From a virus: a DNA stretch of 63,568 nt. The position numbers were made by a program, and so were the translations under genes. The notes beneath the pieces are model-generated. The model did not search any database, was not told the origin of the DNA, and saw only the letters and a program-made list of their open reading frames with translations. How positions within the stretch are numbered: position 1 is the stretch's first letter; the number at the start of each line of letters is the position of its first letter. The stretch is taken from the IMG/VR virus record IMGVR_UViG_3300021963_006734, positions 1 to 63,568 of that record; one strand, written 5' to 3'. Positions 888 to 50,861 of this stretch are shown in pieces.

Positions 888-912
888 TCACTATTACTAA
901 ATGGAGGTCAGA

Positions 913-1072: not shown

Positions 1073-1081
1073 GGAGAATAT

Positions 1082-2149: not shown

Positions 2150-2152
2150 CAC

Positions 2153-2181
2153 TTGACAATACACGACGGATTTAGTATATT
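2153..2181 (+). promoter_or_regulatory. Sigma70-type promoter for the UV endonuclease operon
   Basis: A perfect -35 TTGACA (2153-2158), a 17-nt spacer and a -10 TATATT (2176-2181) place transcription near 2188. This is the clearest host-type promoter in the window and suggests early expression of the genes from 2235 on. Confidence 0.82.
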
Positions 2182-2234
2182 ACATGTAAATAATGTAACT
2201 TACATATTTCATTAACTACTAATAGGTTATTTAT

Positions 2235-6297: not shown

Positions 6298-6304
6298 CCT
6301 CTAA

Positions 6305-6313
6305 CTATTTATA
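6305..6313 (+). promoter_or_regulatory. Late promoter box CTATTTATA
   Basis: Exact CTATTTATA, 22 nt before the ATG at 6336. It heads the baseplate/tail operon. Confidence 0.7.
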
Positions 6314-6335
6314 GTATAGTAACTTGGAGGTTATA

Positions 6336-26523: not shown

Positions 26524-27418
26524 TTTATCACAAATACTAGGCGACTTTCGACATCACGGGAAAGGTGAACATTACTTTTCCTGTCCATTCTGCCATCATC
26601 GAAACAAAAAATTTGCAGTCAACGTTGTCAAGAATAAATGGCACTGTTGGGTATGTGGTGCCAAAGGTAACCATTTAATAGGACTACTTAAAAAGTTAGA
26701 TGTATCACCACAACAAATAAAAGAACTTCGTAAACTATTATCTGATGAAGATGTAACAATCTACAAAGAAACAAATCAAGAAACTGTAGAGTTACATTTA
26801 CCGCACGAATTCAAACCGTTGTGGAAACCAGAAAATACATATGAATATATACACGCCATCAATTATTTAAAAAAACGAGGTATTACTGGATACGATATAA
26901 TTCGTTATCGTATGGGATATTGTGAAACAGGAAATTACAGTGGTAGAATAATTGTTCCTTCATATGAAGATGTGGGAAAGTTGAATTACTTTATCGCACG
27001 AAGTTATCATGATGGTGGAATGAAATATAAGAACCCACCTGTATCTAAAAATATTATTGTATTCGATGATCAAATAAATTGGAATCAACCAATTATTCTA
27101 TGCGAAGGAATATTTGACGCAATAGCAATACGGCGTAATGCAATTCCTATGTTGGGTAAATTTATACCCAAAAAATTAGAGACAAAATTACTTGAAAAAC
27201 AAGTCAAGCAAGTATATATTTTATTGGACGATGACGCTAAATCGGAGGCGTTGATCTTAGAACAAAAATTAAAATCACACGGTATACAAGTATCACAAGT
27301 GTCAGTGAACGGTGGTGACGCAGCTGACCTTGGATTTGAAAAGACCTGGGAGTTTATTAATAACTCAAAGGCAACTACCTTTAAGGACTTTATACAAAAT
27401 AGGTTACAAAATACATGA
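26507..27418 (+). CDS. 61: DNA primase, gp61-like
   Basis: 303 residues. It makes RNA primers for lagging-strand synthesis. The N-terminal zinc-binding domain has C26-x2-C29 and C47-x2-C50 (WHCWVCG). The TOPRIM domain shows E200 in ILCEGIFDA and D241-D242-D243. It is slightly shorter than T4 gp61 (342 aa). Its helicase partner (gp41-like) is not in this window. The start codon lies in the loop of a hairpin that also holds the SD. The stop overlaps the next start (ATGA). Confidence 0.9.
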   Translation: MNLISLLSQILGDFRHHGKGEHYFSCPFCHHRNKKFAVNVVKNKWHCWVCGAKGNHLIGLLKKLDVSPQQIKELRKLLSDEDVTIYKETNQETVELHLPHEFKPLWKPENTYEYIHAINYLKKRGITGYDIIRYRMGYCETGNYSGRIIVPSYEDVGKLNYFIARSYHDGGMKYKNPPVSKNIIVFDDQINWNQPIILCEGIFDAIAIRRNAIPMLGKFIPKKLETKLLEKQVKQVYILLDDDAKSEALILEQKLKSHGIQVSQVSVNGGDAADLGFEKTWEFINNSKATTFKDFIQNRLQNT

Positions 27419-30400
27419 ACATAAGTGTCCCATTTAATAAACTTAAAAAAATAGTTCATCTCGCAGACATTCATATCCGTCTGTTTAAGAGACATGAAGA
27501 ATATAACGAATGTTTCCAGACCCTCTATAACCAGTTGCGTCAAGAAGATTTGACCGACTCGGTTATTGTCGTTGCTGGTGATATCGTCCACGCTAAGACG
27601 GATATGAGTCCTGAGATGGTGGTCATGGCTACGGAGTTCTTAAAGACTTTAGCGGACATCGCACCAACAATCGTTATTGCGGGTAATCATGACCTGAATC
27701 TATCTAACATGAATAGATTAGATAGTTTGACACCAATTATCAATAGTATAAATCATACAGATCTTCACTATTTTAAGTACTCCGGCGTTTACACCATCGC
27801 AGATACAGACTTTGCTGTATACTCCATTCTTGACGAAAAGGAAAAATGGCCATCCCACAAGGATTGTCATTCTCGTCGTAAGGTTGCTCTTTACCACGGG
27901 CCCGTTCATGGAGCAACCACGGATGCGCGATATACAATTACGAATAGACATGTTGAAGTGTCAGCATTTAATGGATTTGACATGGTTTTACTTGGTGACA
28001 TCCATAAACATCAAGTATTACAAGAACGAGATGTGGACAGTAAAAAACCTGTAATTGTATACGCATCTTCCCTCATTCAACAGAATCATGGGGAAAGTGT
28101 AGACAATCATGGGTGGTGTATGTGGGATGTTGGTAGTTGTTCGTTTGAGTTTCGTCCACTTCCAAATAATTACGGATACTACACAGTAGAGGTTAAAAAC
28201 GGAAAGGTTCCTGTATTGAGTGATGTTCCTAAAAATGTTCGCATGCGGATATTCACAGGAAACCTTGATACTTCTGCCGTTAAGAAACTGACAGCGGTAT
28301 TACGAAAACAACACAATATTATTGAGTTAAGTATTAATAAATCTAGACACGATACTTCCACTCGTGACAAAATGAAAAGTGGTTTGGAAATAGTCGATGT
28401 GCAGAATATTAATATACAAAATCAACTAATCCAAGATTGGTTGGAACGACAATACGATGATACAATTGATAGAATTTTAATGACAAAAATTCTAGATGTT
28501 AATAAAAATCTTAATGCGCAGATCGTCCACGATGATCATTCGCGTAATATCAATTGGCGTCCCCTTCAATTAAAATTCTCTAATATGTTCTCATATGGTG
28601 AGGATAATATTATTAACTTTGGGAAGATGAAGGGAATATATGGTATCTTTGCCCAAAACGCATCTGGTAAGAGTTCTGCTATGGATGCCCTTATCTTTAC
28701 CTTATATGACAAGACACCACGGGCATTCCGTGGTGATCATATAATGAACAATCGTAAAGATGAGTTTACCTGTCAGTTAAAGTTTGAAATTAATAATGAA
28801 ATTTTCTATATTCGTAGAACTGGAACTCGTAAGAAAAATGGAGATGTCAAAGTAGATGTGTCTTTCTGGCGAGAAAATCCAGATGGTACCCACGAATCGT
28901 TAAATGGTGAGGATCGTCGTGATACCAATGCAAATATCCGTAATTATGTTGGTACTTACGAAGATTTCGTCTTAACAGCACTTAGTAGTCAAAATAGTAA
29001 TGCTCTGTTTATTGATAAGTCACACTCAGAAAGAAAAGATCTTCTTATTCAATTTATGGGGCTGAGTATCTTTGACAAATTATGCGATACTGCAAATGAC
29101 GAGATGAAAGAAATTTCGGGAGCACTCCGTAAGTTCAAGAAGATAGACTTCACTCAGACCTTATCAGACACCCAAAATAAGTTGGATATAACTCGCGAGG
29201 AACATGAAAGAGTAGAGGAATTATTTGTAAAGGTAAAACAGGAACAAGAAATTTTATACGAAAAGTTAAAGAGTTTACAAGAACAAAAACGACCAGTTCC
29301 AAACATTGAGTTAGACATCGGTACTTTATTGTCTAATCGTGATGAAATGGCAGAAAATGCGGTTGTGTATGAAAAAGAAAAATTACAAGCAGAAACACGA
29401 TTGGAATCATTACATGAAACTATTACACAAAAAACAAACGAAGTAACGGAAGCAAACATTCCAGAACTTCGTAAGTCGGTTGATGAGTATAATAAATTAT
29501 GTGATTTATTTAATAAGGGAAGTAATGCTTTAAAGTTGACCACTTCAAAGGTTACTGAAAAGGAAAAGTTCAAGACTAAATTGGAAAGTTACAAGTATAA
29601 TCCCGATTGTAATGTTTGCGTAGAAAACAATAAGTCAATTATTGAGGACATGGAATCGGTTACTCACGAGTTGATTGACTTATATGAACTTCAATCCAAA
29701 CAAGAAGATGCGGTAAACGAAATCAAGCAACAGATGGAACCGTTAATTGAGAAAGTCAATGTTTGTACACATTATGAGAAGTTACAAACTGAAGTTCAGC
29801 AACTACAAAAGAAAGCTAGTGGGATTGAATTAGACATTCAGAAATTATTGACTAGTATTGAAAAATGTGATCGTAAACGGGAACAAATTGAAAAAGACAT
29901 TGAACTTAATCGATTAAACAAAGAAAATATTGAATACAATATTGAAGTAGACAAACAAATCGTTCATGTCCAATATGACATTACCGCATCCAAGAAAAAG
30001 GCTGACCATATGGAAAAGGTGGTCCGTGACTTGCATGGTGAAATCAAGGTCTTGGAAGCCACCAAGATGGACATTATGAACCAGATTAAGGAAGCTGAGG
30101 AGTTGGAAGCGACCTATGAAGCATACAAGTATTACATGGAAGCGGTGGGGCGTGATGGTATCCCATACGAATTGATGAGTAAGGCAATCCCAAACATCGA
30201 AGCTGAAATAAATAATATTTTAAGTCAGATTGTGGAATTCACTATCTCACTTGAAGTGGACGGAAAGAACATCGTGGGTAAGTTAAACTACGATTATGAC
30301 CGTGTATGGCCGCTGGAAAATTCGTCTGGTATGGAACGGTTCATTAGTAGTCTGGCAATCCGTGTAGCTTTGATTAACGCAAGTAATCTTCCAAAATCAA

Positions 30401-30594
30401 ATTTTATGATAGTAGACGAAGGATTGGGAACACTAGACGCTGAGAATATGACTTCGATGCATACCCTATTTGGTATTCTGAAAGCCCAGTTTGACTTCCT
30501 TATCGTTATCAGTCATTTGGATGTGGTCAGAGATATGGTAGACAATTTAATTGAGATAAAAAGAGAGGACGGATTCTCCTATATTCAATCGTGA
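27415..30594 (+). CDS. Fused Mre11-Rad50 (gp47-gp46) recombination nuclease
   Basis: 1059 residues in one reading frame. The N-terminal calcineurin-like nuclease (about 1-340) has D18-x-H20, a GD near 55, and G90-N-H-D93. A linker leads into a Rad50/SMC ATPase with Walker A QNASGKSS (K419), a coiled coil, zinc hook C732-x2-C735, ABC signature SSGMERF near 970 and Walker B D1001-E1002. T4 and bacteria encode the two subunits separately. A single chain fixes stoichiometry at 1:1. It processes DNA ends for recombination-dependent replication. No internal start or frameshift is seen between the halves. Confidence 0.93.
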   Translation: MNISVPFNKLKKIVHLADIHIRLFKRHEEYNECFQTLYNQLRQEDLTDSVIVVAGDIVHAKTDMSPEMVVMATEFLKTLADIAPTIVIAGNHDLNLSNMNRLDSLTPIINSINHTDLHYFKYSGVYTIADTDFAVYSILDEKEKWPSHKDCHSRRKVALYHGPVHGATTDARYTITNRHVEVSAFNGFDMVLLGDIHKHQVLQERDVDSKKPVIVYASSLIQQNHGESVDNHGWCMWDVGSCSFEFRPLPNNYGYYTVEVKNGKVPVLSDVPKNVRMRIFTGNLDTSAVKKLTAVLRKQHNIIELSINKSRHDTSTRDKMKSGLEIVDVQNINIQNQLIQDWLERQYDDTIDRILMTKILDVNKNLNAQIVHDDHSRNINWRPLQLKFSNMFSYGEDNIINFGKMKGIYGIFAQNASGKSSAMDALIFTLYDKTPRAFRGDHIMNNRKDEFTCQLKFEINNEIFYIRRTGTRKKNGDVKVDVSFWRENPDGTHESLNGEDRRDTNANIRNYVGTYEDFVLTALSSQNSNALFIDKSHSERKDLLIQFMGLSIFDKLCDTANDEMKEISGALRKFKKIDFTQTLSDTQNKLDITREEHERVEELFVKVKQEQEILYEKLKSLQEQKRPVPNIELDIGTLLSNRDEMAENAVVYEKEKLQAETRLESLHETITQKTNEVTEANIPELRKSVDEYNKLCDLFNKGSNALKLTTSKVTEKEKFKTKLESYKYNPDCNVCVENNKSIIEDMESVTHELIDLYELQSKQEDAVNEIKQQMEPLIEKVNVCTHYEKLQTEVQQLQKKASGIELDIQKLLTSIEKCDRKREQIEKDIELNRLNKENIEYNIEVDKQIVHVQYDITASKKKADHMEKVVRDLHGEIKVLEATKMDIMNQIKEAEELEATYEAYKYYMEAVGRDGIPYELMSKAIPNIEAEINNILSQIVEFTISLEVDGKNIVGKLNYDYDRVWPLENSSGMERFISSLAIRVALINASNLPKSNFMIVDEGLGTLDAENMTSMHTLFGILKAQFDFLIVISHLDVVRDMVDNLIEIKREDGFSYIQS

Positions 30595-30632: not shown

Positions 30633-32459
30633 ATGCCAAGAACTAGAAAAACATTATCAAAACAAAATTTAGCAACACTACCAGTATTAATAAATGATAC
30701 AGCACCAGAATCTTTATATTTTAATATAAAACAGTTATCTGGTGTATTTAGTGGTGGTCGTAATGCTTTTCTAATATCTGGAACTTATCTACTAAAACCA
30801 AACACAGAGGTTTTGATAGAAATTATAGACTCTAACGGTAATAGTTTATATGTAGAAGCTATTAAAGGATTTGTGGAAGGTGGTGCGAGATTGGTGGTTG
30901 TTGAAGTGTATGAAAACACACCCCGTGGTTCTGCTCTATTAAACATCGTAGGAACCGCAAGAATAAACGCAGAAACGAACACAGTATTACCCAATGAGGT
31001 AACACGATCACCAAATGTACGATGGCAGAAAAAAATTATTATAGAACCAAAAACAAAAAATATAACACCAATTAGAATTAAAAAACAACCTGAAATAATA
31101 GTAGATGAGTTGTTACTAACGGGTTCGTTACTAAGTCAATCAGTAATTAATACTGCAATATCAAATATAACTTTGAAACCAAAATCTGTTTTAAATAAAC
31201 AACAAGGATATATTGTTATTGTAAATGATGGTGAATCAATTCAATTTAACTCGTCACACTTAACACCAAAAATAACTGGTAGTTTTACCTTACAGCAAAG
31301 AACATACAGAGGTACAATACCAGCAACAACCGAATCTATAGAAATTACACAAATTCACACAGCATCACTAAATTTACCACTTTCATTATTGAACGCATCA
31401 AAGTCATTTACCGACACAAATATTACAAGTTCTGTAGATAGTAGTATATTAAATATTACACCAATTAGAAATGGACAGTATGAAATTGGTGAAAATTTAT
31501 ATACGGCGTCCGCAACGACATATGTTAGAACAGCGAAATCCATTACTGGTTCTATACAATATTATCATGTAAGTGAAAGTTCTACTTTAACAACGGGTAG
31601 TATATTATCGTTCGCAAAACTTCGTATTATCAACTTGGATACGATCAGTGGTGAAATTTTTAGAATTAAAACTTCCAATAGACAAGCCGGTTCTCAAACA
31701 GATTTCGCCTTCGTTGCAGATACTCCGACACGAGTAGGTGAATTATTAATAACAAGTTCAGCAGATCAAGATGATAGAGAACAACCAATCGGAGTATTCA
31801 ATACATTATCGATATTAACTGCAAGTTGGTATGCACATAATGTTACGGGGTCAGGAATACCAGATATTTCGTATGGTGACGATACTATAAGTGCATCAGC
31901 GCACATCAGTTTGAGTCGTGATAACAATTATATGTTAGATGCTGGACACGCCGTAACAGCTACTAGTAGTTATTTCATTGGTACTCGTAAAGAAATTGAT
32001 CTGTTCCCAACATCGGAATACACATTGAAGTTCGATAGTTATGTATATACAACTTCTGCGTCATATGCATTTACTTCAAGTCAATATGTAATGGATGTAT
32101 ATTTAACTGGATCTGCTATAGTGGGTGACAATATATTCGGACAAAAAATAGCATCTGTTAGTACAAAAGAAAAAGTAGCATACTTTCCAAATAAAACATT
32201 TAACTTCACTGTTCCGCGAATTGGTAATGCGGGATTACGATTTGTTATTAACAATGGATTTTGGCAAATTGCAAACATTTCATTAAAGGTTGCTGAAGAA
32301 TACGCATTTAGTCCTGATGAAGTCACAATCACAGTACCTAACACAACACAAACAACTGCAAGTTTAGTATTTAAAACTGACTTGTTTGATATCAATAATA
32401 ACGCGTTGGATTTAAATATTCAATCAATACCAACCTTCTTCTCAGGTTCAAGACGATGA
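30633..32459 (+). CDS. Large virion structural protein, unknown
   Basis: 608 residues. Residues 15-110 form a beta-sandwich-like domain. The rest is beta-rich with many Ser/Thr pairs, SASYAF-like and TGS motifs similar to the fibre genes at the end of the window. A C-terminal jelly-roll-like segment (NKTFNFTVPRIGNAGLRF) ends the protein. It follows a late box and overlaps the next gene by 4 nt. It probably belongs to a fibre or baseplate appendage. Confidence 0.65.
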   Translation: MPRTRKTLSKQNLATLPVLINDTAPESLYFNIKQLSGVFSGGRNAFLISGTYLLKPNTEVLIEIIDSNGNSLYVEAIKGFVEGGARLVVVEVYENTPRGSALLNIVGTARINAETNTVLPNEVTRSPNVRWQKKIIIEPKTKNITPIRIKKQPEIIVDELLLTGSLLSQSVINTAISNITLKPKSVLNKQQGYIVIVNDGESIQFNSSHLTPKITGSFTLQQRTYRGTIPATTESIEITQIHTASLNLPLSLLNASKSFTDTNITSSVDSSILNITPIRNGQYEIGENLYTASATTYVRTAKSITGSIQYYHVSESSTLTTGSILSFAKLRIINLDTISGEIFRIKTSNRQAGSQTDFAFVADTPTRVGELLITSSADQDDREQPIGVFNTLSILTASWYAHNVTGSGIPDISYGDDTISASAHISLSRDNNYMLDAGHAVTATSSYFIGTRKEIDLFPTSEYTLKFDSYVYTTSASYAFTSSQYVMDVYLTGSAIVGDNIFGQKIASVSTKEKVAYFPNKTFNFTVPRIGNAGLRFVINNGFWQIANISLKVAEEYAFSPDEVTITVPNTTQTTASLVFKTDLFDINNNALDLNIQSIPTFFSGSRR

Positions 32460-35400
32460 ATTTAGATAAACTTTTTGAACAAGTAGTAGTATTAAATGAT
32501 TATATTGAGCAACACAATTTTTTGGTCGAAAAACTCGCACCTGATCTTGTGGAAGAATTATCTATCACTACTACCGATACTTTGGAAGAAGCAAAGAAGA
32601 AGCGTAAAAAAGCTAAACAAAAAATTAAACGCTATGGATTTTTCTATCCTTTGTATCCGCATATAATGAAAACTGGTGAGAAACCAAAAGAAGAACCAAC
32701 AACACCACCAACGGAACCAACCGATAGTGGTGATACAGGTGGGGACGCTGGTGGTGAAGACGCAGGTGGTGATGGTGGAGTAGAAGAAGATAAACGCATA
32801 CCAAGAAAACCAGGTCAACCTGCTGGTAGTAAGAAACATTCTGACTTATACACCGATGAAAATCCCAAAGGAACTATTCACGGATTAAAGTTTGCTACAC
32901 CAGAAGATGCTAAGGCCAGTGTATCAAAAATTCGTAATAGTGGTCGTAGTCATGCGCACAAAATACAAGCAGCTGTTGCTATGGAACAACGAGCACGAGC
33001 AGCAGGTAAAGCATCAGCAGCTGCGGTCTATCGTAAGTTTATCAATAGTATGAAAAAGAAAACAGACGAAGTAAAACCACAAAATATAGATAACGCATTC
33101 GCATTTCCCTACTCACTTGGTCCAGAACAAGACGATGAGTTCTTAAATAATGAAGCATTGTCTAGTACGGAACGGATGCGCAGATACAACCGTCGTCATC
33201 CCGAAAAAGTTCGAAACTATCTTAAAAAGACGCAAGATGACCGTGTTGCACGAAACCGTGATCGAGCAAAAGCTGTCAAAAAATATGGTAAGTCTAAAAT
33301 GAAAAATCACGATGTGCATCATCCAAATGGTGCAAAGAATGGTAATTGGAAACTTGCTCGTAAAGATCATGGTCGAGACAAAAAGAATGAAAATTTAGAA
33401 TATGTATATCTTTCTGAATTAGTTGAAGGTATGGTACCAAATGGTCCGTGGCAACTCATTACTGAAGGTGGTGCTGCTGGACACTTGGCACATCCATATG
33501 AGGATGATACATTAACATTTTCGGATATAAAAGAAATGGTTAAACGAGGCCTCGTGGGAGGTTTGGATGCCGAAGCACCCGTTACAGAAAAATTAGATGG
33601 ACAAAATATCATGTTCACGGTTCGTGATGGACAAGTAGTATTTGCTAGAAACAAAGGACAAGTAAAAAATCGTGGTAAAAACGCGTTGGATCTAGCTGGT
33701 ATTAGACAAATGTTTGCTGGTCGTGGTAATATTGAAAAAGCATTTACCGGAGCAGCAGAAGATCTAACGAAGGCTGTGGGTACACTACCTCAAGATCAAC
33801 GAGATGCGATGTTTGCAAACGGTTCTAAGTTTATGAATGTGGAAGTTATATTCCCAGATACAAAAAATGTTATACCATATGATAAGAGTGTGTTGGTATT
33901 TCACGGAACAGTTGAGTATGATGAAGAAGGAAATGAAGTTGGTCGTAATATAACAGATAGTAAAACACTGTCGGATCAAATCACAAAAGTAAACGCACAA
34001 CAACAAAAAACATTTGGTATTTCTGGTCCGCGTACTATTGCTTTTAACGATGCTGAAACTGCTCGTGATAAAGAAAAGATGAAAGATTATGGAGCACAAA
34101 TTGCTCGTATTCAAAATGAATATGGATTAGATGATAAAAGTACGATTGAAGACTACAAGAAAGAATGGTGGTCACGAGAAATTGATAAGCTGGGAGTGGA
34201 ATGGACACCAGAAGAGAAAGAGGGTCTAATATCAAGATGGGCATTGGGTGAAAAGAAATTTGGAGTTAAAAATATAGAGGACACCGAAAAGAAAAAGTTT
34301 TTCCGTGAGTACGAAGCAAATAAACTAACAGACGCTCAGAATGTAGCAAATCGTCCATTAGAAAGTATTTTTCTACGAGTCGGTGCGGATACACTTCGTC
34401 GTGTAACAAATACATTATCAGCAAACAATCCAGAATTAACAGCATCGTTGAAAAAAGAATTGTTGGACACTATAAAAAGTCTAAAGGATACAGATGATGC
34501 GAGTAAATTAGCAAAATTACAAAAACAAATAGAACGATTGGATGATATTGGTGTTGATAAGGTAGTACCATCGGAAGGATTGGTATTTATATACAAAGGA
34601 AAACCATATAAGTTTACTGGTACATTCGCACCGGTAAATCAAATATTGGGTACTTTAAAATTTGCCAAAGGAAAGGCCGAGGAAGCACCTGCAGAAAAAC
34701 CATCAGCAGAAAAAACTACAACAGAACCAGTAACACAACCTACAGAACAAAAAACAGTAGCTATTTTTCCTGGTAGATTTCAACCGTTTCATGCTGGACA
34801 TTATAGTATTTATAGAGCGTTGGTCAAAAAATTTGGTAAAGATAATGTGTATATAGGAACCAGTGATAAGACCGACCCAATAAAATCACCGTTTGGATTC
34901 AAACAAAAGAAAAATATTATGACAAAAATGTTTGATATCCCAGAAGATAAAGTAGTACAAGTTAAAAATCCATACGCACCAAAAGAAATAACAGATACTT
35001 TACCGGATAACACTGTATTTGTTACAGCAGTCAGTCAAAAAGATTCTGAAAGACTGGCTGGTAGTAAATATTTTTCACAGTATGACGACAAGAAATCAAA
35101 ATCTGGATATAAGGAAAAAGGATATTTCATTGTTGCTCCAGAAATGCAGTTACAACTCCAAGGAAAAAATATCAGTGGTACTCAAGTACGCGCATTGATG
35201 GGAGATCCAAAAATAACAGATAGAGCAAAACAAGAAATTTTTACAATGATATATGGAAAGTTTAATCCAGAAGTTTTTAAACAAATTGTAAAAACAACAA
35301 CAGATTCCGAAGAAGCTTTGAAATTGACACAACAGCATGGTGGGGATAAAGCTGCCAAAGCTAAGATGAAAAAAACAGAACCAACAAAAGCTCCAAAAAT

Positions 35401-35551
35401 ACGAGCTAAAGTAACTCCAAAAGATCCGTCATTCTATAAACCAGGTGAAACTTGGGAAACGGGTGGTGGTAATTTTGGTGGTAAAAATAAGAAAAATCAA
35501 GTAAGATATTTTAGTACACAAGAACGAGCCAAAAAGTTCGCTACAACATAA
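32456..35551 (+). CDS. Multidomain HNH-like / nucleic-acid-ligase-like / adenylyltransferase fusion
   Basis: 1031 residues. Residues 1-150 are a helical start and an acidic Gly/Pro linker. Residues 150-320 are basic and end with a possible HNH-like HDVHHPNG motif (H285, H288, H289). L334-I-T-E337 then G338 resembles a prohead protease site. A covalent nucleotidyltransferase domain follows: motif I K379-L-D-G382, ARNKG, motif III NVEVIF, motif IV E707-G-L-V-F and motif V K719-F-T-G. After a Pro/Glu linker comes a HIGH-superfamily nucleotidylyltransferase with GRFQPFHAGH (H779, H782) and ISGTQVR (906-912), as in NMN adenylyltransferases. Substrates are unknown: RNA or DNA sealing plus NAD synthesis, or co-factor supply to the ligase, are options. 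Confidence 0.8.
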   Translation: MNLDKLFEQVVVLNDYIEQHNFLVEKLAPDLVEELSITTTDTLEEAKKKRKKAKQKIKRYGFFYPLYPHIMKTGEKPKEEPTTPPTEPTDSGDTGGDAGGEDAGGDGGVEEDKRIPRKPGQPAGSKKHSDLYTDENPKGTIHGLKFATPEDAKASVSKIRNSGRSHAHKIQAAVAMEQRARAAGKASAAAVYRKFINSMKKKTDEVKPQNIDNAFAFPYSLGPEQDDEFLNNEALSSTERMRRYNRRHPEKVRNYLKKTQDDRVARNRDRAKAVKKYGKSKMKNHDVHHPNGAKNGNWKLARKDHGRDKKNENLEYVYLSELVEGMVPNGPWQLITEGGAAGHLAHPYEDDTLTFSDIKEMVKRGLVGGLDAEAPVTEKLDGQNIMFTVRDGQVVFARNKGQVKNRGKNALDLAGIRQMFAGRGNIEKAFTGAAEDLTKAVGTLPQDQRDAMFANGSKFMNVEVIFPDTKNVIPYDKSVLVFHGTVEYDEEGNEVGRNITDSKTLSDQITKVNAQQQKTFGISGPRTIAFNDAETARDKEKMKDYGAQIARIQNEYGLDDKSTIEDYKKEWWSREIDKLGVEWTPEEKEGLISRWALGEKKFGVKNIEDTEKKKFFREYEANKLTDAQNVANRPLESIFLRVGADTLRRVTNTLSANNPELTASLKKELLDTIKSLKDTDDASKLAKLQKQIERLDDIGVDKVVPSEGLVFIYKGKPYKFTGTFAPVNQILGTLKFAKGKAEEAPAEKPSAEKTTTEPVTQPTEQKTVAIFPGRFQPFHAGHYSIYRALVKKFGKDNVYIGTSDKTDPIKSPFGFKQKKNIMTKMFDIPEDKVVQVKNPYAPKEITDTLPDNTVFVTAVSQKDSERLAGSKYFSQYDDKKSKSGYKEKGYFIVAPEMQLQLQGKNISGTQVRALMGDPKITDRAKQEIFTMIYGKFNPEVFKQIVKTTTDSEEALKLTQQHGGDKAAKAKMKKTEPTKAPKIRAKVTPKDPSFYKPGETWETGGGNFGGKNKKNQVRYFSTQERAKKFATT

Positions 35552-36795: not shown

Positions 36796-38382
36796 ATGAA
36801 TACATCAGCACAACAGTTACGAGAAAGAATTAAAGAAGAATACAAAAAATGCGCCATGTCTGCGGAGTATTTTTTAACAAAATATTCATATATTCAACAT
36901 CCGATCCGTGGTCGGGTGTTGTTTAATTTATACAAGTATCAAAAAGAAGCTCTTTTAGATTTTGAAAATCATGAATATAATATTGTTTTAAAAGGAAGAC
37001 AGATTGGTATTTCTACATTAGTTGCTGGATATTCTTTGTGGTTAATGTTATTTCATAACGACAAAAATATCTTAGTTATTGCAACAAAACAAGAAACTGC
37101 TAAAAATCTAGTAACGAAAGTAAAATTTATGCATGATAACTTACCAACTTGGTTACGGGGGTCTATCGTTACTAATAATAAATTATCATTACAATTTGCT
37201 AACGGATCACAGATTAAAGCAGTGGCATCTAGTCCAGACGCTGGTAGATCGGAAGCTCTTTCTCTTTTGATTCTTGACGAAGCCGCGTTTATTGATGCAG
37301 CAGATATAATCTGGACCGCTGCATCAAGTACACTTTCAACGGGTGGACAGGCTATATTATTATCTACTCCAAACGGTGTAGGTAATTTCTTCCATAAAAT
37401 GTGGCAACAAGCAGAGTCTAAAGAAAATAATTTCAATCCAATACTATTGGACTGGCGGGTACACCCAGAACGAGATCAAGCATGGAGAGATCGACAAACT
37501 GAACTGATGGGTGAATTGCAAGCAATACAAGAACATGACGCATCGTTCATATTTTCTGGTAACACGGTTATACCGGCAGAAATTATTGAATTTTACAAAA
37601 GTACCTTTGTTCAAGAACCAATTACCAAAGGTGGATTCGATGGCAATTTGTGGATATGGGAATACGCACAACCAGGAAAATCTTATGTAGTATCCGCCGA
37701 CGTATCTCGTGGTGATGGTGAAGATTATTCTGCATTTCATGTCATAGACATAGAAACCTCCGCACAAGTAGCAGAATATAAGGGGAAAGTAGAAACCAAA
37801 CAGTTTGGTAATATGTTGGTGTCGATAGCAACCGAGTACAATGACGCATTACTTATCCCAGAAAATAGTAGTATTGGATGGAACGCTATACAACAGATTA
37901 TTGATCGTGGATATAAAAATCTCTTTTATATGTCAAAGGATTTACAATATGTGGATGTAGAGCATCAAATGTCTGGAAAGTATCACAAGGAAGAACGAAG
38001 CATGGTACCTGGATTTACCACATCACAACGAACGCGTCCACTAATCATTTCCAGATTAAAAGAGTATATGTTAGAAAATAGTTTTACTATTCGTTCTACT
38101 CGTACATGTGCGGAATTAGAAACTTTTATTTGGAAAAATGGACGGCCGGAAGCTTTGTCTAGTTATAACGATGATTTGATTATGGCTTTGTGTATTGGGC
38201 TTTGGGTACGGGATACAGCGTTACGATTACGACAGGAAGGTATAGAATTAACAAAGTTAGCTATAGAAAAAACGAGATACCAAGTAGAGGGTATGGTATA
38301 TACCAATAATAGACCAAAACAAGATCCTTACAAGATGCAAATTGGTCAAATTACCGAGGATATTAGTTGGTTATTAGATTAA
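36796..38382 (+). CDS. 17: Terminase large subunit gp17
   Basis: 528 residues. It is the ATP-driven motor that packages DNA, with a C-terminal headful nuclease. The ATPase domain has a Walker A-type GRQIGIST (67-74) and Walker B LLILDEAAF (D161-E162). A coupling-motif-like LLSTPNG follows. The nuclease domain has D302 in SADVSRGDGEDY, an acidic PENSS segment and a final YNDDLIMAL motif. T4 gp17 is 610 aa, and this version is shorter at the C-terminus. No small terminase (gp16) is recognisable nearby. Confidence 0.95.
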   Translation: MNTSAQQLRERIKEEYKKCAMSAEYFLTKYSYIQHPIRGRVLFNLYKYQKEALLDFENHEYNIVLKGRQIGISTLVAGYSLWLMLFHNDKNILVIATKQETAKNLVTKVKFMHDNLPTWLRGSIVTNNKLSLQFANGSQIKAVASSPDAGRSEALSLLILDEAAFIDAADIIWTAASSTLSTGGQAILLSTPNGVGNFFHKMWQQAESKENNFNPILLDWRVHPERDQAWRDRQTELMGELQAIQEHDASFIFSGNTVIPAEIIEFYKSTFVQEPITKGGFDGNLWIWEYAQPGKSYVVSADVSRGDGEDYSAFHVIDIETSAQVAEYKGKVETKQFGNMLVSIATEYNDALLIPENSSIGWNAIQQIIDRGYKNLFYMSKDLQYVDVEHQMSGKYHKEERSMVPGFTTSQRTRPLIISRLKEYMLENSFTIRSTRTCAELETFIWKNGRPEALSSYNDDLIMALCIGLWVRDTALRLRQEGIELTKLAIEKTRYQVEGMVYTNNRPKQDPYKMQIGQITEDISWLLD

Positions 38383-40585: not shown

Positions 40586-41083
40586 ATGATTAGATTAACA
40601 GATATCCTATGTGAATCTTGTTGGGATGGATATAAACAAGTTGGTATGAAGGAACTTAACGGTAAAATGGTACCAAATTGTGTTCCAGTAGAGGAACTTT
40701 ACCACCGTCCAGAAAGTGATGTTACATCAGACGATGAATTAACAGAAGGTGAATTCTGTAATGAATGTCTAATTGAAGTTCTTGATGGATTACACGAAAA
40801 TCAACTTGGTGAAGCAGAATATCACGGCCGTAAGGTTCCTCTTGGTAAAATTATGAGAGGTGATGTCAAGAAGTTTAAGGTATATGTTCGTGATCCAAAG
40901 AGTGGAAATATCAAGAAAGTTAATTTTGGTCATGGTGGAACTTCAGCAAAACGCCGTGGTGAAAAGACCATGAAGATTAAAAAGAACATTCCTTCTCGTC
41001 GTAAATCATTCCGTGCAAGACATCGTTGTTCAACTGCAAAAGATAGAACTTCTGCTCGTTATTGGGCATGTCGTACTTGGTAA
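40586..41083 (+). CDS. Two-module internal head protein (CWxGYK + DUF5872-like)
   Basis: 165 residues. ATG 40586 follows GAGAG and is preferred over a TTG at 40568. The leader MIRLTDILCE is followed by CWDGYKQVGMKELNGKMVPNC, which I break here as CWDGYKQVGM and GKMVPNCVP. After an acidic linker comes KKFKVYVRDPKSGNIKKVNF and a C-terminal RRKSFRARHRC...RYWACRTW, as in DUF5872-type phage proteins. Two widespread phage modules are joined behind one leader. Confidence 0.78.
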   Translation: MIRLTDILCESCWDGYKQVGMKELNGKMVPNCVPVEELYHRPESDVTSDDELTEGEFCNECLIEVLDGLHENQLGEAEYHGRKVPLGKIMRGDVKKFKVYVRDPKSGNIKKVNFGHGGTSAKRRGEKTMKIKKNIPSRRKSFRARHRCSTAKDRTSARYWACRTW

Positions 41084-41087: not shown

Positions 41088-41444
41088 ATGAAAAAGAAAA
41101 TTTCACGGGAACAATCCGACAAGATATTAGATAAAATGGGTTATAAGTTTAACCCAACAGAATTCTTTTTAGGAATGAATACAGAATTAGAACACCAAGA
41201 TGTAACTAATGGAAATGTGTTGACAACGGCAAAAATTGCCGCAGCACATCTTAAAGAAAATCCAAAGTATTATTCATTATTATTAAAGCATGTAGAAAAA
41301 ACTAATGAGCAACTTGGTGGGATAGCAGGAGCATCACCAACCGCGTCGGGTCTAGTAGCACCTGGTGGTTATATTCGTGGAGCACCAAAACCAAAAGATG
41401 TTAAGAAAATGCGAGTACGACTCGACAAGGAGAAATCACAATGA
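41088..41444 (+). CDS. DUF5661-like phage protein
   Basis: 118 residues. ATG 41088 lies just after the previous stop; the upstream in-frame ATG at 41013 would run through the preceding gene and is rejected. Core motif: FNPTEFFLGMNTELEHQDVT, then TAKIAAAHLKENPKYYSLL, as in DUF5661 proteins. The His/Glu residues could bind metal. No leader of the shared type is present, and the C-terminus is basic. Confidence 0.75.
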   Translation: MKKKISREQSDKILDKMGYKFNPTEFFLGMNTELEHQDVTNGNVLTTAKIAAAHLKENPKYYSLLLKHVEKTNEQLGGIAGASPTASGLVAPGGYIRGAPKPKDVKKMRVRLDKEKSQ

Positions 41445-41794
41445 TTAAATTAAGTAATATTTTGTTGAACGAAGCTGGAAAAGAAAATCGTATCATTCCA
41501 ACTCGTTTAGTAGTAATACTAGAAAAATGTATGGGTGAGTTAAAAGAGTCAGATCAAAAACAAATCACAGAATTATTATCTCGTGTATTAGAAGGAATTA
41601 CCAAAGTTAATGAAATGCCATATAATTATAATACTATGACTACATGGCAAATGACTCAATTAGCTGAAGTTGAAGCACCTATAGCAATTCTCCGAGAAAA
41701 GTTAAATAACTTAATAACAAGTAAATCCACGAAAGTTAATGTAGAAACTGTTCGTCAAGCTGTGAAAGCATTGGACGAATTATATATATACTAA
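41441..41794 (+). CDS. Helical head-region protein with leader
   Basis: 117 residues. It begins MIKLSNILLNE-A, matching the leader pattern and giving a predicted site LLNE|A like that of the capsid protein. The rest is a helical bundle without known family. It overlaps the previous stop by 4 nt and precedes the portal by 13 nt. Confidence 0.75.
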   Translation: MIKLSNILLNEAGKENRIIPTRLVVILEKCMGELKESDQKQITELLSRVLEGITKVNEMPYNYNTMTTWQMTQLAEVEAPIAILREKLNNLITSKSTKVNVETVRQAVKALDELYIY

Positions 41795-41807: not shown

Positions 41808-43706
41808 ATGGCAGATACATCATTATTTGGTAGATTAAAGAGACTTTTTTCTACCAACACCGTTGTAAGAAATATCGGTGGAAAAAAATTAAAAGTAGCC
41901 GATACTGATAATATCCAAGCGTTTGTTAATAGACGAGGTATAGATCGTTATCATCGCGTGTACTCGTCATTGACGGGTGGATATGGATCTTCACACGGGC
42001 GATACGAAGCTGCCGCTGCATTCCAAGGATCACGATTACAGTTATTCCGTGATTATGATATGATGGACAACGATCCCATCATCTCATCGGTATTGGACAT
42101 TTATGCAGATGAAAGTACAATCAAAGATGAATTTGGACAGATATTAAGTATTAAAGCAAAAAATCAAAATGTTCAAGAAATTTTACATAATTTATTTTAT
42201 GATATTTTAAATGTAGAGTTTAATCTCTGGCCGTGGGTTCGTAACATGGCAAAGTACGGAGATTTCTTTTTATATTTAGATTTAGATGAAGAATATGGTG
42301 TAGTTAATGCTATACCGTTATCTGTTTATGAAACCATTCGTATCGAAGGCGAACAACCCGACCAACCATTCAGTGTGCGATTCAAAATCGAAAATGATTT
42401 CTTGCGACTAGGCAAGACAGATTTCGAAAATTTTGAAATTGCACATTTTCGTTTATTAGCCGATACAAATTTTCTTCCCTATGGAAAAGCCATGATTGAA
42501 GGTGGTCGTCGTGTCTGGAAACAACTCCAGCTTATGGAAGATGCGATGTTAATTCATCGTATTATGCGAGCACCGGATAAGCGTAAAATTTTAGTAGATA
42601 TTGGCAATATCCCGCCGGCAGAAATTGATACCTTCATGAATCGTGTAATGGATCGCATGAAAAAAACTCCGTTGGTGGATCCACAAACAGGAGATTATAA
42701 CCTTCGTTATAACATGCAGAATATTACAGAGGATTTTTATCTTCCTGTCCGCGGCAAAGACTCAGGAACCGATATTCAAAATCTTCCTGGATTGCAATTC
42801 AATGCAATCGAAGATATTGAATATTTAAGAAACAAATTAATGGCTGCGTTTAAAGTCCCTAAATCATTTATAGGATATGAAGAAGATATTAATGGAAAAG
42901 CTACGCTGGCTGCACAAGATGTGCGATTTGCTCGTACAATTGAACGCATCCAACGAATTATGGTATCGGAATTAACTAAAATTGCTATTGTACATTTGTA
43001 TATCCAAGGGTTCCGTGACGAAGAATTAGTTGATTTTGAACTAAGTTTGACATCACCTTCTATTGTATATGAACAAGAAAAACTCAATATGTGGAAGGAA
43101 AAGGTACAAGTTGCAAACGATATGATGGGTACCAAACTAATATCACAAGATTGGATCTACCATAATATATTTGAAATGTCGGAAGAAATGGCTAATGAAG
43201 AACGCAGTAAAGTCATGAATGATGTCAAACGAATGGCCGAACTTACTAGATTGGAACAAGAGGCATCACAACCACAACAAACGGGAACTCCTACCGGAGA
43301 AACACCACCAGAAGAAACATCACCAGAAGAAACACCATCGTCGGAAGAAGAAGAACAACAAATTGATGATGTAGATACGATTCTTGCATCATTAGAAACT
43401 GGTGATGAAGAAAGTGAACTAGAAGAAATTCCAGAAGAAGAATTGGAAGAAGCCAAGATGGGTAGACCAAAAACTGGAATGTCATACGGTCAAGATAGTC
43501 ACCCTAGAGGAAGAGATCCACTGGGTAGTAAAGAAAATAGTGATGTGTTGTCTGTAGGTAAAAAGCGAAACGATAAACGCAAGTCTCCGTTGGCATTAGA
43601 ATTACAATCTTTCTTTGGTAAAAAGAATAATAAAAAAATTATTATGGAATCACAAGAAACTGGTTCTTTTTTAGATGAAAATAATATTTTAGACCTTGAA
43701 AACTAA
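41808..43706 (+). CDS. 20: Portal vertex protein gp20
   Basis: 632 residues. It forms the dodecameric DNA gate and nucleates prohead assembly. T4-type motifs include RYHRVYSSLTGGYGSSHGR near the start, DNDPIISSVLDIYADEST, the long clip/stem region, LPGLQFNAIEDIEYLRNKL and AAFKVPKSFIGYE. The C-terminal 120 residues are an acidic Glu/Pro linker and a basic GRPKTGMSYG end that are poorly conserved in this family. T4 gp20 is 524 aa. SD GAGGGA. Confidence 0.95.
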   Translation: MADTSLFGRLKRLFSTNTVVRNIGGKKLKVADTDNIQAFVNRRGIDRYHRVYSSLTGGYGSSHGRYEAAAAFQGSRLQLFRDYDMMDNDPIISSVLDIYADESTIKDEFGQILSIKAKNQNVQEILHNLFYDILNVEFNLWPWVRNMAKYGDFFLYLDLDEEYGVVNAIPLSVYETIRIEGEQPDQPFSVRFKIENDFLRLGKTDFENFEIAHFRLLADTNFLPYGKAMIEGGRRVWKQLQLMEDAMLIHRIMRAPDKRKILVDIGNIPPAEIDTFMNRVMDRMKKTPLVDPQTGDYNLRYNMQNITEDFYLPVRGKDSGTDIQNLPGLQFNAIEDIEYLRNKLMAAFKVPKSFIGYEEDINGKATLAAQDVRFARTIERIQRIMVSELTKIAIVHLYIQGFRDEELVDFELSLTSPSIVYEQEKLNMWKEKVQVANDMMGTKLISQDWIYHNIFEMSEEMANEERSKVMNDVKRMAELTRLEQEASQPQQTGTPTGETPPEETSPEETPSSEEEEQQIDDVDTILASLETGDEESELEEIPEEELEEAKMGRPKTGMSYGQDSHPRGRDPLGSKENSDVLSVGKKRNDKRKSPLALELQSFFGKKNNKKIIMESQETGSFLDENNILDLEN

Positions 43707-44656: not shown

Positions 44657-45154
44657 ATGAATCAACACGATAGACTCAGAGAAATGATCCGACAAATGAT
44701 CAGATCACAGTTAGAAGAAATGACCACCACTTCTGCTGTTCCTGGATACCTTACCCCGTATGCATTTCGAGGTAATAAAAAAGCATCGGTAGATAGAGCA
44801 AAACACATTGCAACCGACACAACAGGATTTAAATTAACTCCTCGTGGTGAAAAGGATATAAATCGTCCCGCCGATAAGATGGAAATCGTCACAAAAGATA
44901 TAAATGAAAATAAATATTATGAATATAAAAATGATGTGACGAAATCACCACATAGAAAAATTGCAGACGCCATTTCTCATTTAAATAAAAATTTACACGA
45001 AATAGAACGGGTAATAAAAATGAACGCTCGATTAAAAAATGAGTCGGGTATAACAAGTGAACAACTATGGAAGCGTACACAGCAAGGATTATTGAAGTTG
45101 GAATCCAAACTTCTTTCTATTGCAACACGCATCCGTGAAATTCGTGGACAATAA
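44657..45154 (+). CDS. Prohead core-like protein
   Basis: 165 residues. It begins with an amphipathic helix (REMIRQMIRSQLEE) ending in an L-x-E site, followed by MTTTSAVPGYLTPYAF, a motif I recall from many marine T4-like head proteins. The rest is basic and helical. A leader removed by gp21 is plausible. It lies 1 nt before the protease gene. Confidence 0.68.
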   Translation: MNQHDRLREMIRQMIRSQLEEMTTTSAVPGYLTPYAFRGNKKASVDRAKHIATDTTGFKLTPRGEKDINRPADKMEIVTKDINENKYYEYKNDVTKSPHRKIADAISHLNKNLHEIERVIKMNARLKNESGITSEQLWKRTQQGLLKLESKLLSIATRIREIRGQ

Positions 45155-45155
45155 T

Positions 45156-45743
45156 ATGCAAACACTTTTAGTTGAATATAATGTCATTTCATATGACAAC
45201 ACTTTATTAAACGAAGCAATGGATATAAGTAAACCACTCGTATTAAAAGATGTGGTATTACAAAGAGCCGATCACAAAAATCAAAACGGAAGAGTATATC
45301 CAAAAGATATATTAGCACGTGAAGCGGCAGTATACAAACAGAACTTCGTGGTACAGCGCAGAGCATTAGGAGAACTTGACCATCCAGAAAGTCCTGTAGT
45401 CAATCTAAAAAATGTATGCTGTAATGTAACAGATTTGTGGTTTGAAGGAACTGATGTAAAGGGAAATATTGAAATTCTTTCTACTCCATCTGGTAATATT
45501 GTTCGTGAATTAATTAAGAATAACATCCGATTGGGTGTTTCATCCCGTGGTATGGGATCGGTAAAACAAATTGGTGAAAGTACAGTTGAGGTCGGTGAAG
45601 ACTTTAATCTAATTTGTTTTGATATCGTAAGTAATCCATCAACACATGGTGCATTTATAAATGAAAATGCAGATAGTAAAATCGTAACACCATACTCTCG
45701 TATTGATGCATTAATTTACGATTTCTTGGGTGAATTAAAATAA
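45156..45743 (+). CDS. 21: Prohead maturation protease gp21
   Basis: 195 residues. It is a herpesvirus-type serine protease that cleaves scaffold, capsid and internal proteins after Glu. Catalytic H76 (GELDHPE) and the Ser in GVSSRGMGS (about 129-130) are visible. ATG 45156 is chosen; the ORF extends upstream into the previous gene. Self-processing may occur at LLNE20|A21. The other members of its presumed substrate set surround it. Confidence 0.93.
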   Translation: MQTLLVEYNVISYDNTLLNEAMDISKPLVLKDVVLQRADHKNQNGRVYPKDILAREAAVYKQNFVVQRRALGELDHPESPVVNLKNVCCNVTDLWFEGTDVKGNIEILSTPSGNIVRELIKNNIRLGVSSRGMGSVKQIGESTVEVGEDFNLICFDIVSNPSTHGAFINENADSKIVTPYSRIDALIYDFLGELK

Positions 45744-46013: not shown

Positions 46014-46385
46014 ATGAAATTAATGGATTTATTATACGAAATTCATAATAAAGCCATTGTACATGACTTTGTAAAATTCGTTGCTCGGGAATTACAATTA
46101 AGTCATTTACCCAAAAAAATTCGTTTAACTAACGAACCGTTGGGACATACATTTGGAACTTATACACCAGATGCAGATGAATTGTACATATATGTTGGTA
46201 AACGACACATTGCCGATGTATTGCGTACCTTAGCACACGAATTGGTTCACCACAAGCAAATGGAACAAGATATTGAACCGGATGGTAGTGATGGATCCTC
46301 TGTAGAAAATGAAGCAAATGCGGTAGCAGGTACATTGATGCGAAAATATCGATATTCACATCCGGAAATATATTTGGAGAAGTAA
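46014..46385 (+). CDS. Zinc metallopeptidase, putatively packaged in the head
   Basis: 123 residues. H75-E76-L77-V78-H79 (LAHELVHHKQ) is a zincin active site, with E98 or E100 (VENEANAVAG) as third-ligand candidates. The N-terminus MKLMDLLYE matches the capsid-targeting leader of its neighbours. Inside the virion it could help processing or be injected to cut a host protein. Target unknown. The glutamate and both histidines are intact. Confidence 0.82.
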   Translation: MKLMDLLYEIHNKAIVHDFVKFVARELQLSHLPKKIRLTNEPLGHTFGTYTPDADELYIYVGKRHIADVLRTLAHELVHHKQMEQDIEPDGSDGSSVENEANAVAGTLMRKYRYSHPEIYLEK

Positions 46386-46891: not shown

Positions 46892-47596
46892 ATGGCAAGC
46901 GGTAAAATATTGTTTGTTAGTGATTTTGATGATACCTTGGCACGCACAGATGCCAAGGTAATTCTTATTCGTAATGGTGAACGAACGGAAATGGACCCCG
47001 CGGAATTTGCGGTGTACGAACCAGAAAAGGGTGATCAGTTTGATTTCTCTCAATTTGATCAATTAATTAATCCTCGTCCCATTCAACGATTTATTAAATT
47101 ATTAAAACAAGCTATTGGACGAGCTGATAAGATTTCAATTTTAACAGCACGCAATCATACATTACCAGTTGCACAATTTTTAAAGATGAATGGAATTACT
47201 TCTGGTGTATCTATTGCAGCGATTGGAAGCTCTGATCCTGAAAAGAAAGCAAGTTATATCCGTAAACACATTCAAGCTGGATTTGACAAAGTTGCGTTTA
47301 TTGACGATTCCCCAAAAAATATTGAAGCAGTAAAGCGACTTAGACAAGAATTTCCTGACGCAAAAATTTTAGCACATCAAGCAAAGGAAGAAGATGATCA
47401 TCCAAAAAATAAACCTACACAAACGGATGAACCAAAACAAACACAAAAAACAAAGTCAGAACCAGAAACTAGCTTGATTGCACAACAAGTTAAATCAATG
47501 GGACTGATAGATATGAAATTTGGACGATATGGAAAAGATGGTGTAGTTACGCATATTGTTCAAAACGGAAGATTGATTCCGAAACCCAAAAAATAA
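46892..47596 (+). CDS. HAD-superfamily phosphatase
   Basis: 234 residues. Motif I D11-F-D13-D-T15, motif II ILTAR (T85), a Lys near 118, and motif IV FIDDS (D138, D139) are all present, so it should be active. The fold suits a small-substrate or polynucleotide 3'-phosphatase like the phosphatase half of T4 Pnk. No kinase domain is attached. A charged linker (160-195) leads to a small C-terminal beta domain (GRYGKDGVVTHIV). It could act with the ligase fusion at 32456 in end repair, which is an inference. Confidence 0.82.
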   Translation: MASGKILFVSDFDDTLARTDAKVILIRNGERTEMDPAEFAVYEPEKGDQFDFSQFDQLINPRPIQRFIKLLKQAIGRADKISILTARNHTLPVAQFLKMNGITSGVSIAAIGSSDPEKKASYIRKHIQAGFDKVAFIDDSPKNIEAVKRLRQEFPDAKILAHQAKEEDDHPKNKPTQTDEPKQTQKTKSEPETSLIAQQVKSMGLIDMKFGRYGKDGVVTHIVQNGRLIPKPKK

Positions 47597-49168: not shown

Positions 49169-50749
49169 ATGTCAGGTGTACAAGAATTTTTAGATGACGC
49201 TGGTTCAGCCCACAAAGTTGTGGTAGAAAAGACCCGTCAATTAGCAGGTAAGTGGGAAAAGTCAGGCCTTCTTGAAGGTTTGGCCGGACAAGAACGCCAA
49301 GGTATGGCGGTTATGCTTGAAAACCAAGCACAACAACTTCTTTCAGAAGCAACAACAACAAATCCAGGTGGATCAGGCACAGCTGGTGAAAACTGGGCAG
49401 GTGTCGCACTTCCATTAGTTCGTAAGGTATTCGGTTCAATCGCAAGTAAGAACTTCGTATCAGTACAACCAATGAACTTACCAGCAGGTTTGGTATTCTT
49501 CATGGATTTCAAGTATGCAAACACAGTAAATGGTAAGACAGCAGGTGGTTCACTTTATGGAACAACATCTGGTTCAGGCGTTCTTCCACGTGGTGGTTTC
49601 TACGGTGCTGGTGAATACGCATACTCAGTAAATGATGCAACATTAACACTCAACCCAGCAATCGCATCAGGTTCAGCAGTTGGTTATGGTGATGTAAACT
49701 ACAACGATACTTACTCATCATCATTTGCATCATTCTTCAAGTTCGTTGTTCCAGCAGTAAGTTTCTCAAACGCAGATTTCAACGCAGTTCGTTCATTCCG
49801 CGTAACAACAAATGTAGCAAACAGTGCACTTCTTCCAGAATTCACCAAGTATGACGGAACAAATGTTACACTTATCGTAAGTGGAACATCAGCTCTTGGT
49901 TCAATGGTATCTTGTTCAGCAGTAGAATATAACAAGCAACCAACAGACACCACCCGTGGTGACTTCGAAGATCGTGATAACTCAGTAACAAACTTGAACA
50001 TTCCACAAATTGATTTGGAACTTCGTTCAGAAACAATCGTTGCTAAGACCCGTAAGTTGAAGGCAGTCTGGTCACCAGAACTTGCACAAGACTTGAACGC
50101 ATACCACTCAGTAGATGCAGAAGCAGAATTAACAGCAATGTTAAGTGACTACATCTCAACTGAAATTGACCTCGAAATTCTTGATATGTTGATTGCAAAC
50201 GCAACCACAACAGAATTCTGGAACGCAGAAGTCGGTAAGGTATGGAACGGTTCAGCATTCGTACCAAGTGCAACATTGAGTGGACAAGCATGGACATCAA
50301 TGACCTGGTTCCAAACACTTGGTCAGAAGATGCAAAAGGTCAGTAACCGTATCCACCAACTCACAATGCGTGGTGGTGCTAACTTCGCAGTATGTTCACC
50401 AACTGTAGCAACAATCCTCGAAACCATTCCTGGTTTCATGGCAGCAACAGACGGTGATAAGATGGAATTTGCAGGTGGTGTAACCAAGGTTGGTTCATTC
50501 CAAAATCGTTACACAATCTACAAGAACCCATACATGACCGAAAATACATTGTTGATGGGCTTCCGTGGAAGTAACTTCCTCGAAACTGGTGCAGTATATG
50601 CTCCATATATCCCACTCATCATGACACCATTGGTCTATGATCCAAATAACTTCACACCACGCCGTGGCGTGATGACCCGTTACGCGAAGAAGATAGTCAG
50701 ACCCGAATTTTTTGGAAAAATCTTTATCGACGGACTCGCAACAGTCTAA
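49169..50749 (+). CDS. 23: Major capsid protein gp23
   Basis: 526 residues (T4: 521). The N-terminal 60 residues form the delta region, with predicted gp21 cleavage LLSE60|A61. HK97-fold features follow: NWAGVALPLVRKVFGSIASKNFVSVQPM, then PAGLVFFMDFKYA and, near the end, YAKKIVRPEFFGKIFIDGL. Codon use is visibly more GC-rich and regular than in neighbours, as expected for a highly expressed gene. SD TTAGGAG. Confidence 0.97.
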   Translation: MSGVQEFLDDAGSAHKVVVEKTRQLAGKWEKSGLLEGLAGQERQGMAVMLENQAQQLLSEATTTNPGGSGTAGENWAGVALPLVRKVFGSIASKNFVSVQPMNLPAGLVFFMDFKYANTVNGKTAGGSLYGTTSGSGVLPRGGFYGAGEYAYSVNDATLTLNPAIASGSAVGYGDVNYNDTYSSSFASFFKFVVPAVSFSNADFNAVRSFRVTTNVANSALLPEFTKYDGTNVTLIVSGTSALGSMVSCSAVEYNKQPTDTTRGDFEDRDNSVTNLNIPQIDLELRSETIVAKTRKLKAVWSPELAQDLNAYHSVDAEAELTAMLSDYISTEIDLEILDMLIANATTTEFWNAEVGKVWNGSAFVPSATLSGQAWTSMTWFQTLGQKMQKVSNRIHQLTMRGGANFAVCSPTVATILETIPGFMAATDGDKMEFAGGVTKVGSFQNRYTIYKNPYMTENTLLMGFRGSNFLETGAVYAPYIPLIMTPLVYDPNNFTPRRGVMTRYAKKIVRPEFFGKIFIDGLATV

Positions 50750-50776
50750 TAGATTTATCCAAAAAAGGAGCAAATT

Positions 50777-50801
50777 GGGGGTCCGAAAGGACTCCCTTTT
50801 T
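50777..50801 (+). terminator. Terminator after capsid gene
   Basis: GGGGGTCC (50777-50784) pairs with GGACTCCC (50789-50796) around a GAAA tetraloop, with one G-U, then TTTTT. Very stable. Confidence 0.9.
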
Positions 50802-50836
50802 GTTGCCCACAACTTCAGTTTTTACCATAAAACTCT

Positions 50837-50845
50837 CTATTTATA
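50837..50845 (+). promoter_or_regulatory. Late promoter box CTATTTATA
   Basis: Exact box 16 nt before the endonuclease start at 50862; AAGGAG follows as SD. Confidence 0.72.
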
Positions 50846-50861
50846 TAAAAAGGAGAATTTT

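Follow-up and report, generated by a model that had tools for sequence, protein, structure and literature searches.

In phage T4, the internal proteins IPI-III and Alt carry short N-terminal targeting leaders that are cut at L/I-X-E in the prohead, and the cargo is ejected with the DNA (PMC9026906). The protease, gp21, is active in the prohead and cuts after L/I-X-E, and the capsid targeting sequences are 10 residues long (PMC9026906). The closest concept to the protein described here is that of the polyvalent proteins known from phages and from conjugative elements. According to the accessible text of that study, they combine many disparate enzyme domains per chain, are shuffled and predicted to be packaged and delivered, and owe their processing mainly to built-in metallopeptidases (PMC5512222). 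The same accessible text names no adenylyltransferase, refers to RNA ligases just as not associated and mentions T4-like phages just for Alt (PMC5512222).

Here, we analysed a stretch of viral DNA of 63,568 nucleotides (IMG/VR record IMGVR_UViG_3300021963_006734; hereafter the window) that contains T4-like head genes. In the translation of the window, an ORF on the plus strand (32456-35551) is stop-free and encodes 1031 amino acids. Judging from sequence comparison, its product is probably the precursor of head cargo in a T4-like phage, composed of exchangeable modules, which would be packaged and cut by gp21 after [IL]xE, its enzymes being ejected with the DNA. The initial annotation had placed the motifs K379-LDG, EGLVF, KFTG, HAGH, ISGTQVR and LITE337/GG (the slash marks a predicted cut) in a chain of this length, and the ORF and every motif were found as given. 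Its polyprotein reading stood as regards the gp21-type site, the ligase-like and NMNAT-type domains and the head-gene context, and was refined in that the upstream part is exchangeable, ligase and NMNAT are expected in one fragment, and some relatives have internal starts. Our literature search found no publication on a phage fusion of an RNA ligase with an NMNAT, and such polyproteins were undescribed in the titles and abstracts found, most subscription papers lying beyond the search.

The late head-gene setting proposed for the gene was supported. It lies upstream of the gp17 terminase large subunit (36796..38382, plus strand; phrog_2, 2e-49), and the window also encodes the portal (41808-43706), the gp21 prohead protease, presumed to be the processing enzyme (45120..45743, plus strand; Peptidase_S77, 8e-27; phrog_207, 1e-49), and the gp23 major head protein (49169..50749, plus strand; phrog_138, 3e-69), in which QAQQLLSE/ATTT was read by eye as a possible cut. 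Among the matches listed, gp17 follows the polyprotein gene on the same strand at 0.5-3.5 kb in all 232 of the 232 matches with both genes mapped. Two other genes of the window deserve mention. A single ORF of 1059 aa at 27415-30594 appears by eye to join an SbcD/Mre11 (gp47-like) phosphoesterase N-terminus to an SbcC/Rad50 (gp46-like) remainder, possibly a natural fusion, and a GIY-YIG homing endonuclease gene (50712-51425; phrog_314, 3e-34) overlaps the end of gp23.

The chain may begin with a targeting and cleavage peptide, MNLDKLFE/ (32456..32479, plus strand; L-F-E at residue 8), and similar N-termini occur in relatives (MSVNKLFE/, MKSPVDILFE/ and MKSAIDILFE/). Such a leader is absent from NMNAT-first relatives, which begin MRKIAIYAGRF. 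In the window protein, the possible leader is followed by an exchangeable N-module (residues 9-72; 32480..32671, plus strand), recognized by its HMM in several architectures, and by a PGQ module (residues 114-203; 32795..33064, plus strand) common to the cyanophage proteins S-SM2_109 and P-TIM68 (83% identity; tblastn matches). Next comes a basic module (residues 233-321; 33152..33418, plus strand), tentatively a nuclease, with the pattern KMKNHDVHHP...KDHG in 29 sequences; HDVHHP and the DH of KDHG are invariant, and the middle Asn is variable. The HNH label given earlier to this region found no database or fold support despite these invariant residues: the module yielded no Pfam, PDB-sequence or usable fold match (the single chain given back by the fold search held no match), and its model is small, with two short strands. 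The basic C-terminal tail (residues 961-1031; 35336..35548, plus strand) matched none of the module HMMs in the window protein.

Relatives were collected by scans of viral contigs, the first giving at least 80 loci, a profile scan giving the best 80 of 529 confirmed candidates and another the best 80 of 304. The module HMMs revealed at least 28 module strings in ligase-bearing ORFs, some of them short as their contigs end within them. NMNAT stands first, last, twice or nowhere in these strings. Two or more disparate domains per chain, shuffled among relatives, are thus present, as in polyvalent proteins. Several individual arrangements were also recorded. In L107 (ORF 859-4113), two NMNAT domains flank one ligase. 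A protein of 1462 aa (L122:718-5103) has an N-terminal P-loop kinase domain (AAA_33/Zeta-like), then PGQ, NMNAT and ligase. Between gp16 and gp17, S-SM2_109 (L084:2489-4615) strings together modules that are separate in the window as the small ORFs 39050, 40236 and 40568. A short NPxTGxxI module (NPT; L058:4428-4562 and many relatives) closes many units; we presume a resemblance to the NCLDV 2-cysteine adaptor, minus its cysteines. In NMNAT-first relatives, a stretch similar to the N-module comes after NPT.

Residues 338-745 (33467..34690, plus strand) form a predicted covalent-nucleotidyltransferase domain with K379 as the putative nucleophile. In an alignment of 44 diverse relatives, K379, D381, G382, R398-N399, E463, E707-G708, K719 and T721 are invariant; motifs I (KxDG with the nucleophilic lysine), III and IV are present, and motif V reads K719-F-T-G, not KxK, with the first lysine alone kept in the 44 sequences. 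The AlphaFold model of residues 338-750 is of moderate quality (pLDDT 72, pTM 0.53) and, together with the alignment, places a large helical insert between motifs IIIa and IV. The best 22 PDB rows from VIA-align were all ligases (Z 5.2-7.2 over ~110 residues), which gives moderate support for a nucleotidyltransferase core fold; 19 of them were RNA or tRNA ligases, headed by Trl1 (Z 7.2), and three were ASFV DNA ligase. In these alignments the first model residue covered is 42 (K379), which stands opposite residues 148 of Trl1, 35 of T4 Rnl2 and 99 of Rnl1; these three we take to be the catalytic lysines of these ligases. Pfam RNA_ligase (PF09414) was the sole family to recur in many members (28/44), its best E of 0.003 being below the cut-off, and a PDB sequence profile search with the ligase alignments retrieved no ligase. 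Because the Foldseek match of the model to PDB was weak (best E 0.08) and motif V has one lysine, we call the domain RNA-ligase-like, a prediction of moderate confidence, and do not place it as a proven superfamily member.

It is somewhat unlikely that the domain is instead another lysine-adenylylating enzyme, such as a protein or small-molecule AMP transferase, a case in which the head-cargo account would stay the same. The missing second lysine of motif V, the helical insert and the Pfam matches under the cut-off would suit such an enzyme, but RNA and tRNA ligases are the best structural rows, and the P-loop kinase domain fused in L122, together with a polynucleotide-kinase-family HAD gene in the window, recalls RNA-repair sets. 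Two relatives (L081/L082, ORF 5797-7992 / 5923-8118) carry KLSRETV in place of KLDGQN and lack the cut site, and appear to be pseudo-ligases, possibly structural. The second enzymatic part, a NadM/NMNAT-like adenylyltransferase domain (34757..35293, plus strand), had been recognized from its motifs HAGH and ISGTQVR, which correspond to the HxGH and ISxTxxR of NadM-type enzymes, and this assignment is now backed by significant matches to Pfam CTP_transf_like (E 3e-6, above the cut-off), phrog_395 (1.6e-13) and PDB NadM 2qjt (3e-5).

Directly before the ligase-like domain lies a leader-like junction, YLSE321/LVEG..QLITE337/GG (33401..33466, plus strand), with predicted gp21-type sites. [IL]xE alone is short and common, and its 10 occurrences in the window chain are no clear excess over the 8.1 in shuffles, so the argument for cleavage rests on the conservation of the junction. 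This was followed in ~237 ligase ORFs (among the matches listed), selected by a pattern where the domain begins. Outside this set are L002 and the two pseudo-ligases, none of which has the site; at least two relatives depart from the junction rule in this way. The 129 distinct contexts before GG, among the matches listed, comprise 110 with [IL]xE, 2 with MxE and 17 with Met, and no other type. Upstream of the junction stand HNH, metallopeptidase (MPT), zinc ribbon (ZNR), NMNAT, NPT or ParB-like (PAR) modules, or a short leader of its own, and since the site is retained across such unrelated modules it is above chance. In the Glu set, column entropy is 0 bits at -1 and 1.1 at -3, compared with 2.9 at -2 and values of 2.6-3.7 in the columns from -5 to -12. 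An L/I-X-E at a functional boundary thus occurs in a genome that encodes gp21, which upholds the view of LITE337/GG as a gp21-type site ahead of the ligase-like domain. The initial annotation also mentioned related phage proteins that open here with a leader of their own, and such proteins do exist (L003/L164, MKFLKSYEEFLNENLILE/GG). Among isolates, Microcystis phage Mel-JY01 has a member of the family, with IIAE ahead of GG.

One could also take the residues before GG to be simply where the folded ligase domain begins; their conservation would then say nothing about cleavage. The segment does touch the conserved domain, with mostly Leu at -4 and just I, L or M at -3. We nevertheless find this very unlikely: -2 is variable, L080 retains LLLE though it has lost GG, and in at least six events the Glu at -1 and an ATG start replace each other, the ATG being mostly preceded by a Shine-Dalgarno sequence. 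Because of this interchange, the ligase domain evidently tolerates a start at the junction.

Returning to a gp21-type site, [IL]xE also marks the metallopeptidase-zinc ribbon and metallopeptidase-ligase junctions and 11/12 NPT-PAR linkers; some other contexts before the ParB-like module are without it. With at most 15 linkers inspected per junction type, no [IL]xE was found in ligase-NMNAT, ligase-NPT or PAR-NPT linkers, and the NMNAT-NPT linkers (at most 15) held a single one, an IEE. Cleavage at every module junction was considered and rejected because the motif is missing from the ligase-NMNAT, ligase-NPT and PAR-NPT linkers. As the inspected ligase-NMNAT linkers lack [IL]xE, ligase and NMNAT should remain in one mature fragment. 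For the window protein, cleavage is predicted to yield one product of residues 9-337, in which extra cuts are possible, e.g. after E321, and one of residues 338-1031.

In the 17 Met contexts, an apparent internal start falls on the same residue as the cut site. All Met-type sequences are in-frame fusions, and their DNA mostly reads AAGGAGTTATTACTTATG/GGTGGA (here the slash precedes GG), in frame with the upstream part. A Shine-Dalgarno-like match, mostly strong, was found in 16/17 of these contexts, the exception by the rule used being L110 (AGAGAG), and AAGGAG itself in 14/17; in the ORFs of Met-type loci, AAGGAG codes 24/334 Lys-Glu pairs, junctions counted in, and no probability is attached to these figures because the Met-type sequences are related to each other. 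On a tree built from 86 ligase domains, of which 18 are of Met type, 8 Glu/Met changes are needed, at least 6 of them forced by well-supported branches. These repeated switches between two states suggest selection for a ligase that begins at GG, whether by a cut site or by an internal start. During infection, relatives of the Met type could produce free ligase lacking a leader, a product that injection by itself would leave unexplained.

Several small genes of the window carry leader-like peptides conserved in relatives. They include a stand-alone metallopeptidase module with the leader MKLMDLLYE/ (46014..46385, plus strand; phrog_87 metallo-protease, 4e-4), which relatives carry inside the polyprotein, and two small cargo-like proteins, one with MIRLTDILCE/ starting at a conserved internal ATG (40586..41083, plus strand; leader kept in relatives, module also in S-SM2_109) and one with MIKLSNILLNE/ (41441..41794, plus strand; MIKLTDLITE/AG and MIRLSDILLNE/AG in relatives). 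A further leader-like peptide, MKYTDFFSE/, has Phe at -3. In the accessible parts of two cyanophage studies, NMNAT-like proteins, among them S-SCSM1 ORF91 and S-CREM2 ORF154, were detected in virions by mass spectrometry, and the authors caution that virion NMNAT may be carry-over; the published virion data found there concern related single proteins, not the full polyprotein (PMC9602691, PMC10665884). ORF91 begins MKSFLQFLKE/A and matches our NMNAT HMM (E 1e-6) but not the ligase HMM. Three proteins of the window (39050, 38726 and 46387) have their matches in S-SCSM1 ORFs 92 and 93, both of which bear a virion-protein annotation. Between gp21 and a putative scaffold gene, the window also encodes a HAD-type protein (46892-47596; phrog_415 polynucleotide kinase, 3e-8), possibly an RNA-end phosphatase.

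A different possibility is that the ligase acts unpackaged, as a free enzyme of the late infection stage inside the host cell, [IL]xE being a linker feature or a site for another protease. The Met-type relatives, whose apparent internal ribosome site would yield a leaderless ligase, and the leaderless NMNAT-first relatives speak for it. On the other hand, the site fits the gp21 pattern and persists behind unrelated modules, the stand-alone L003 has a leader with the same ending, the NMNAT homologue and several neighbours match S-SCSM1 virion proteins, and gp21 works in the prohead (PMC9026906). We therefore judge it unlikely and prefer packaging, which may not be the whole story since Met-type and leaderless NMNAT-first forms exist.

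If the protein is head cargo, the precursor chain would enter the prohead core, where gp21 would cut after [IL]xE. In this phage two fragments would result, the N-terminal one comprising N-module, PGQ and HNH-like module and the other, from G338 on, ligase and NMNAT. The internal junction looks like the leader of a formerly separate cargo gene that has joined the chain by in-frame fusion. Once released, the enzymes would leave the head together with the DNA and be active as infection begins; the ligase-like domain would self-adenylylate at K379 and seal damaged RNA (e.g. tRNA cut by host nucleases), and NMNAT would rebuild NAD+. We infer RNA sealing and NAD+ rebuilding at entry because of the enzyme types, the fused kinase domain, the nearby kinase/phosphatase-family gene and phage NAD biology, on which published work exists. 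More broadly, and quite tentatively, T4-like phages may possess a combinatorial cargo system in which RNA-repair and NAD modules are swapped between prohead-protease sites, the cut point being replaceable by an internal ribosome start, and in which ligase and NMNAT possibly form one unit, e.g. if the ligase uses NAD+ and the NMN that it sets free is recycled within the fragment. If the head-cargo account holds, the phage head would bring finished enzymes for RNA repair and NAD rebuilding into the cell ahead of phage gene expression, and so directly oppose host defences based on tRNA cutting or NAD+ depletion. A route of cargo-gene fusion would also come to light, in which leaders become internal protease sites, or ribosome sites end up serving that junction. 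From the junction rule follow predicted fragment ends that are checkable in virions.

With regard to known systems, the ligase-like domain shares nucleotidyltransferase motifs with the RNA ligases Trl1, T4 Rnl1, Rnl2 and Naegleria RNA ligase, but differs in low identity, an N-terminal HPxxD segment of its own, the large helical insert and the KFTG of motif V. Two BFVD/UniProt entries from uncultured phage (A0A6J5MCV5 and A0A6J5MBE6) match the whole ligase model structurally at 34% identity; their title, 'Cytidyltransferase-like domain-containing protein', covers the NMNAT part only. S-SCSM1 ORF91 and S-CREM2 ORF154 are NMNAT-like virion proteins, the former with a homologous domain and a leader, but ORF91 is a separate protein. 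Compared with T4 IPI-III and Alt, the window protein has several enzymes in one precursor, internal leader-like sites, and ligase-like and NMNAT-like cargo. Polyvalent proteins, as far as the accessible text of their description goes, have metallopeptidase, ParB-like and nucleotidyltransferase domains in common with the window family, in which, by contrast, gp21-type [IL]xE sites or internal starts delimit several junctions (PMC5512222). Relative to that text, the present family adds modules delimited by protease sites or starts in T4-like phages to the polyvalent concept.
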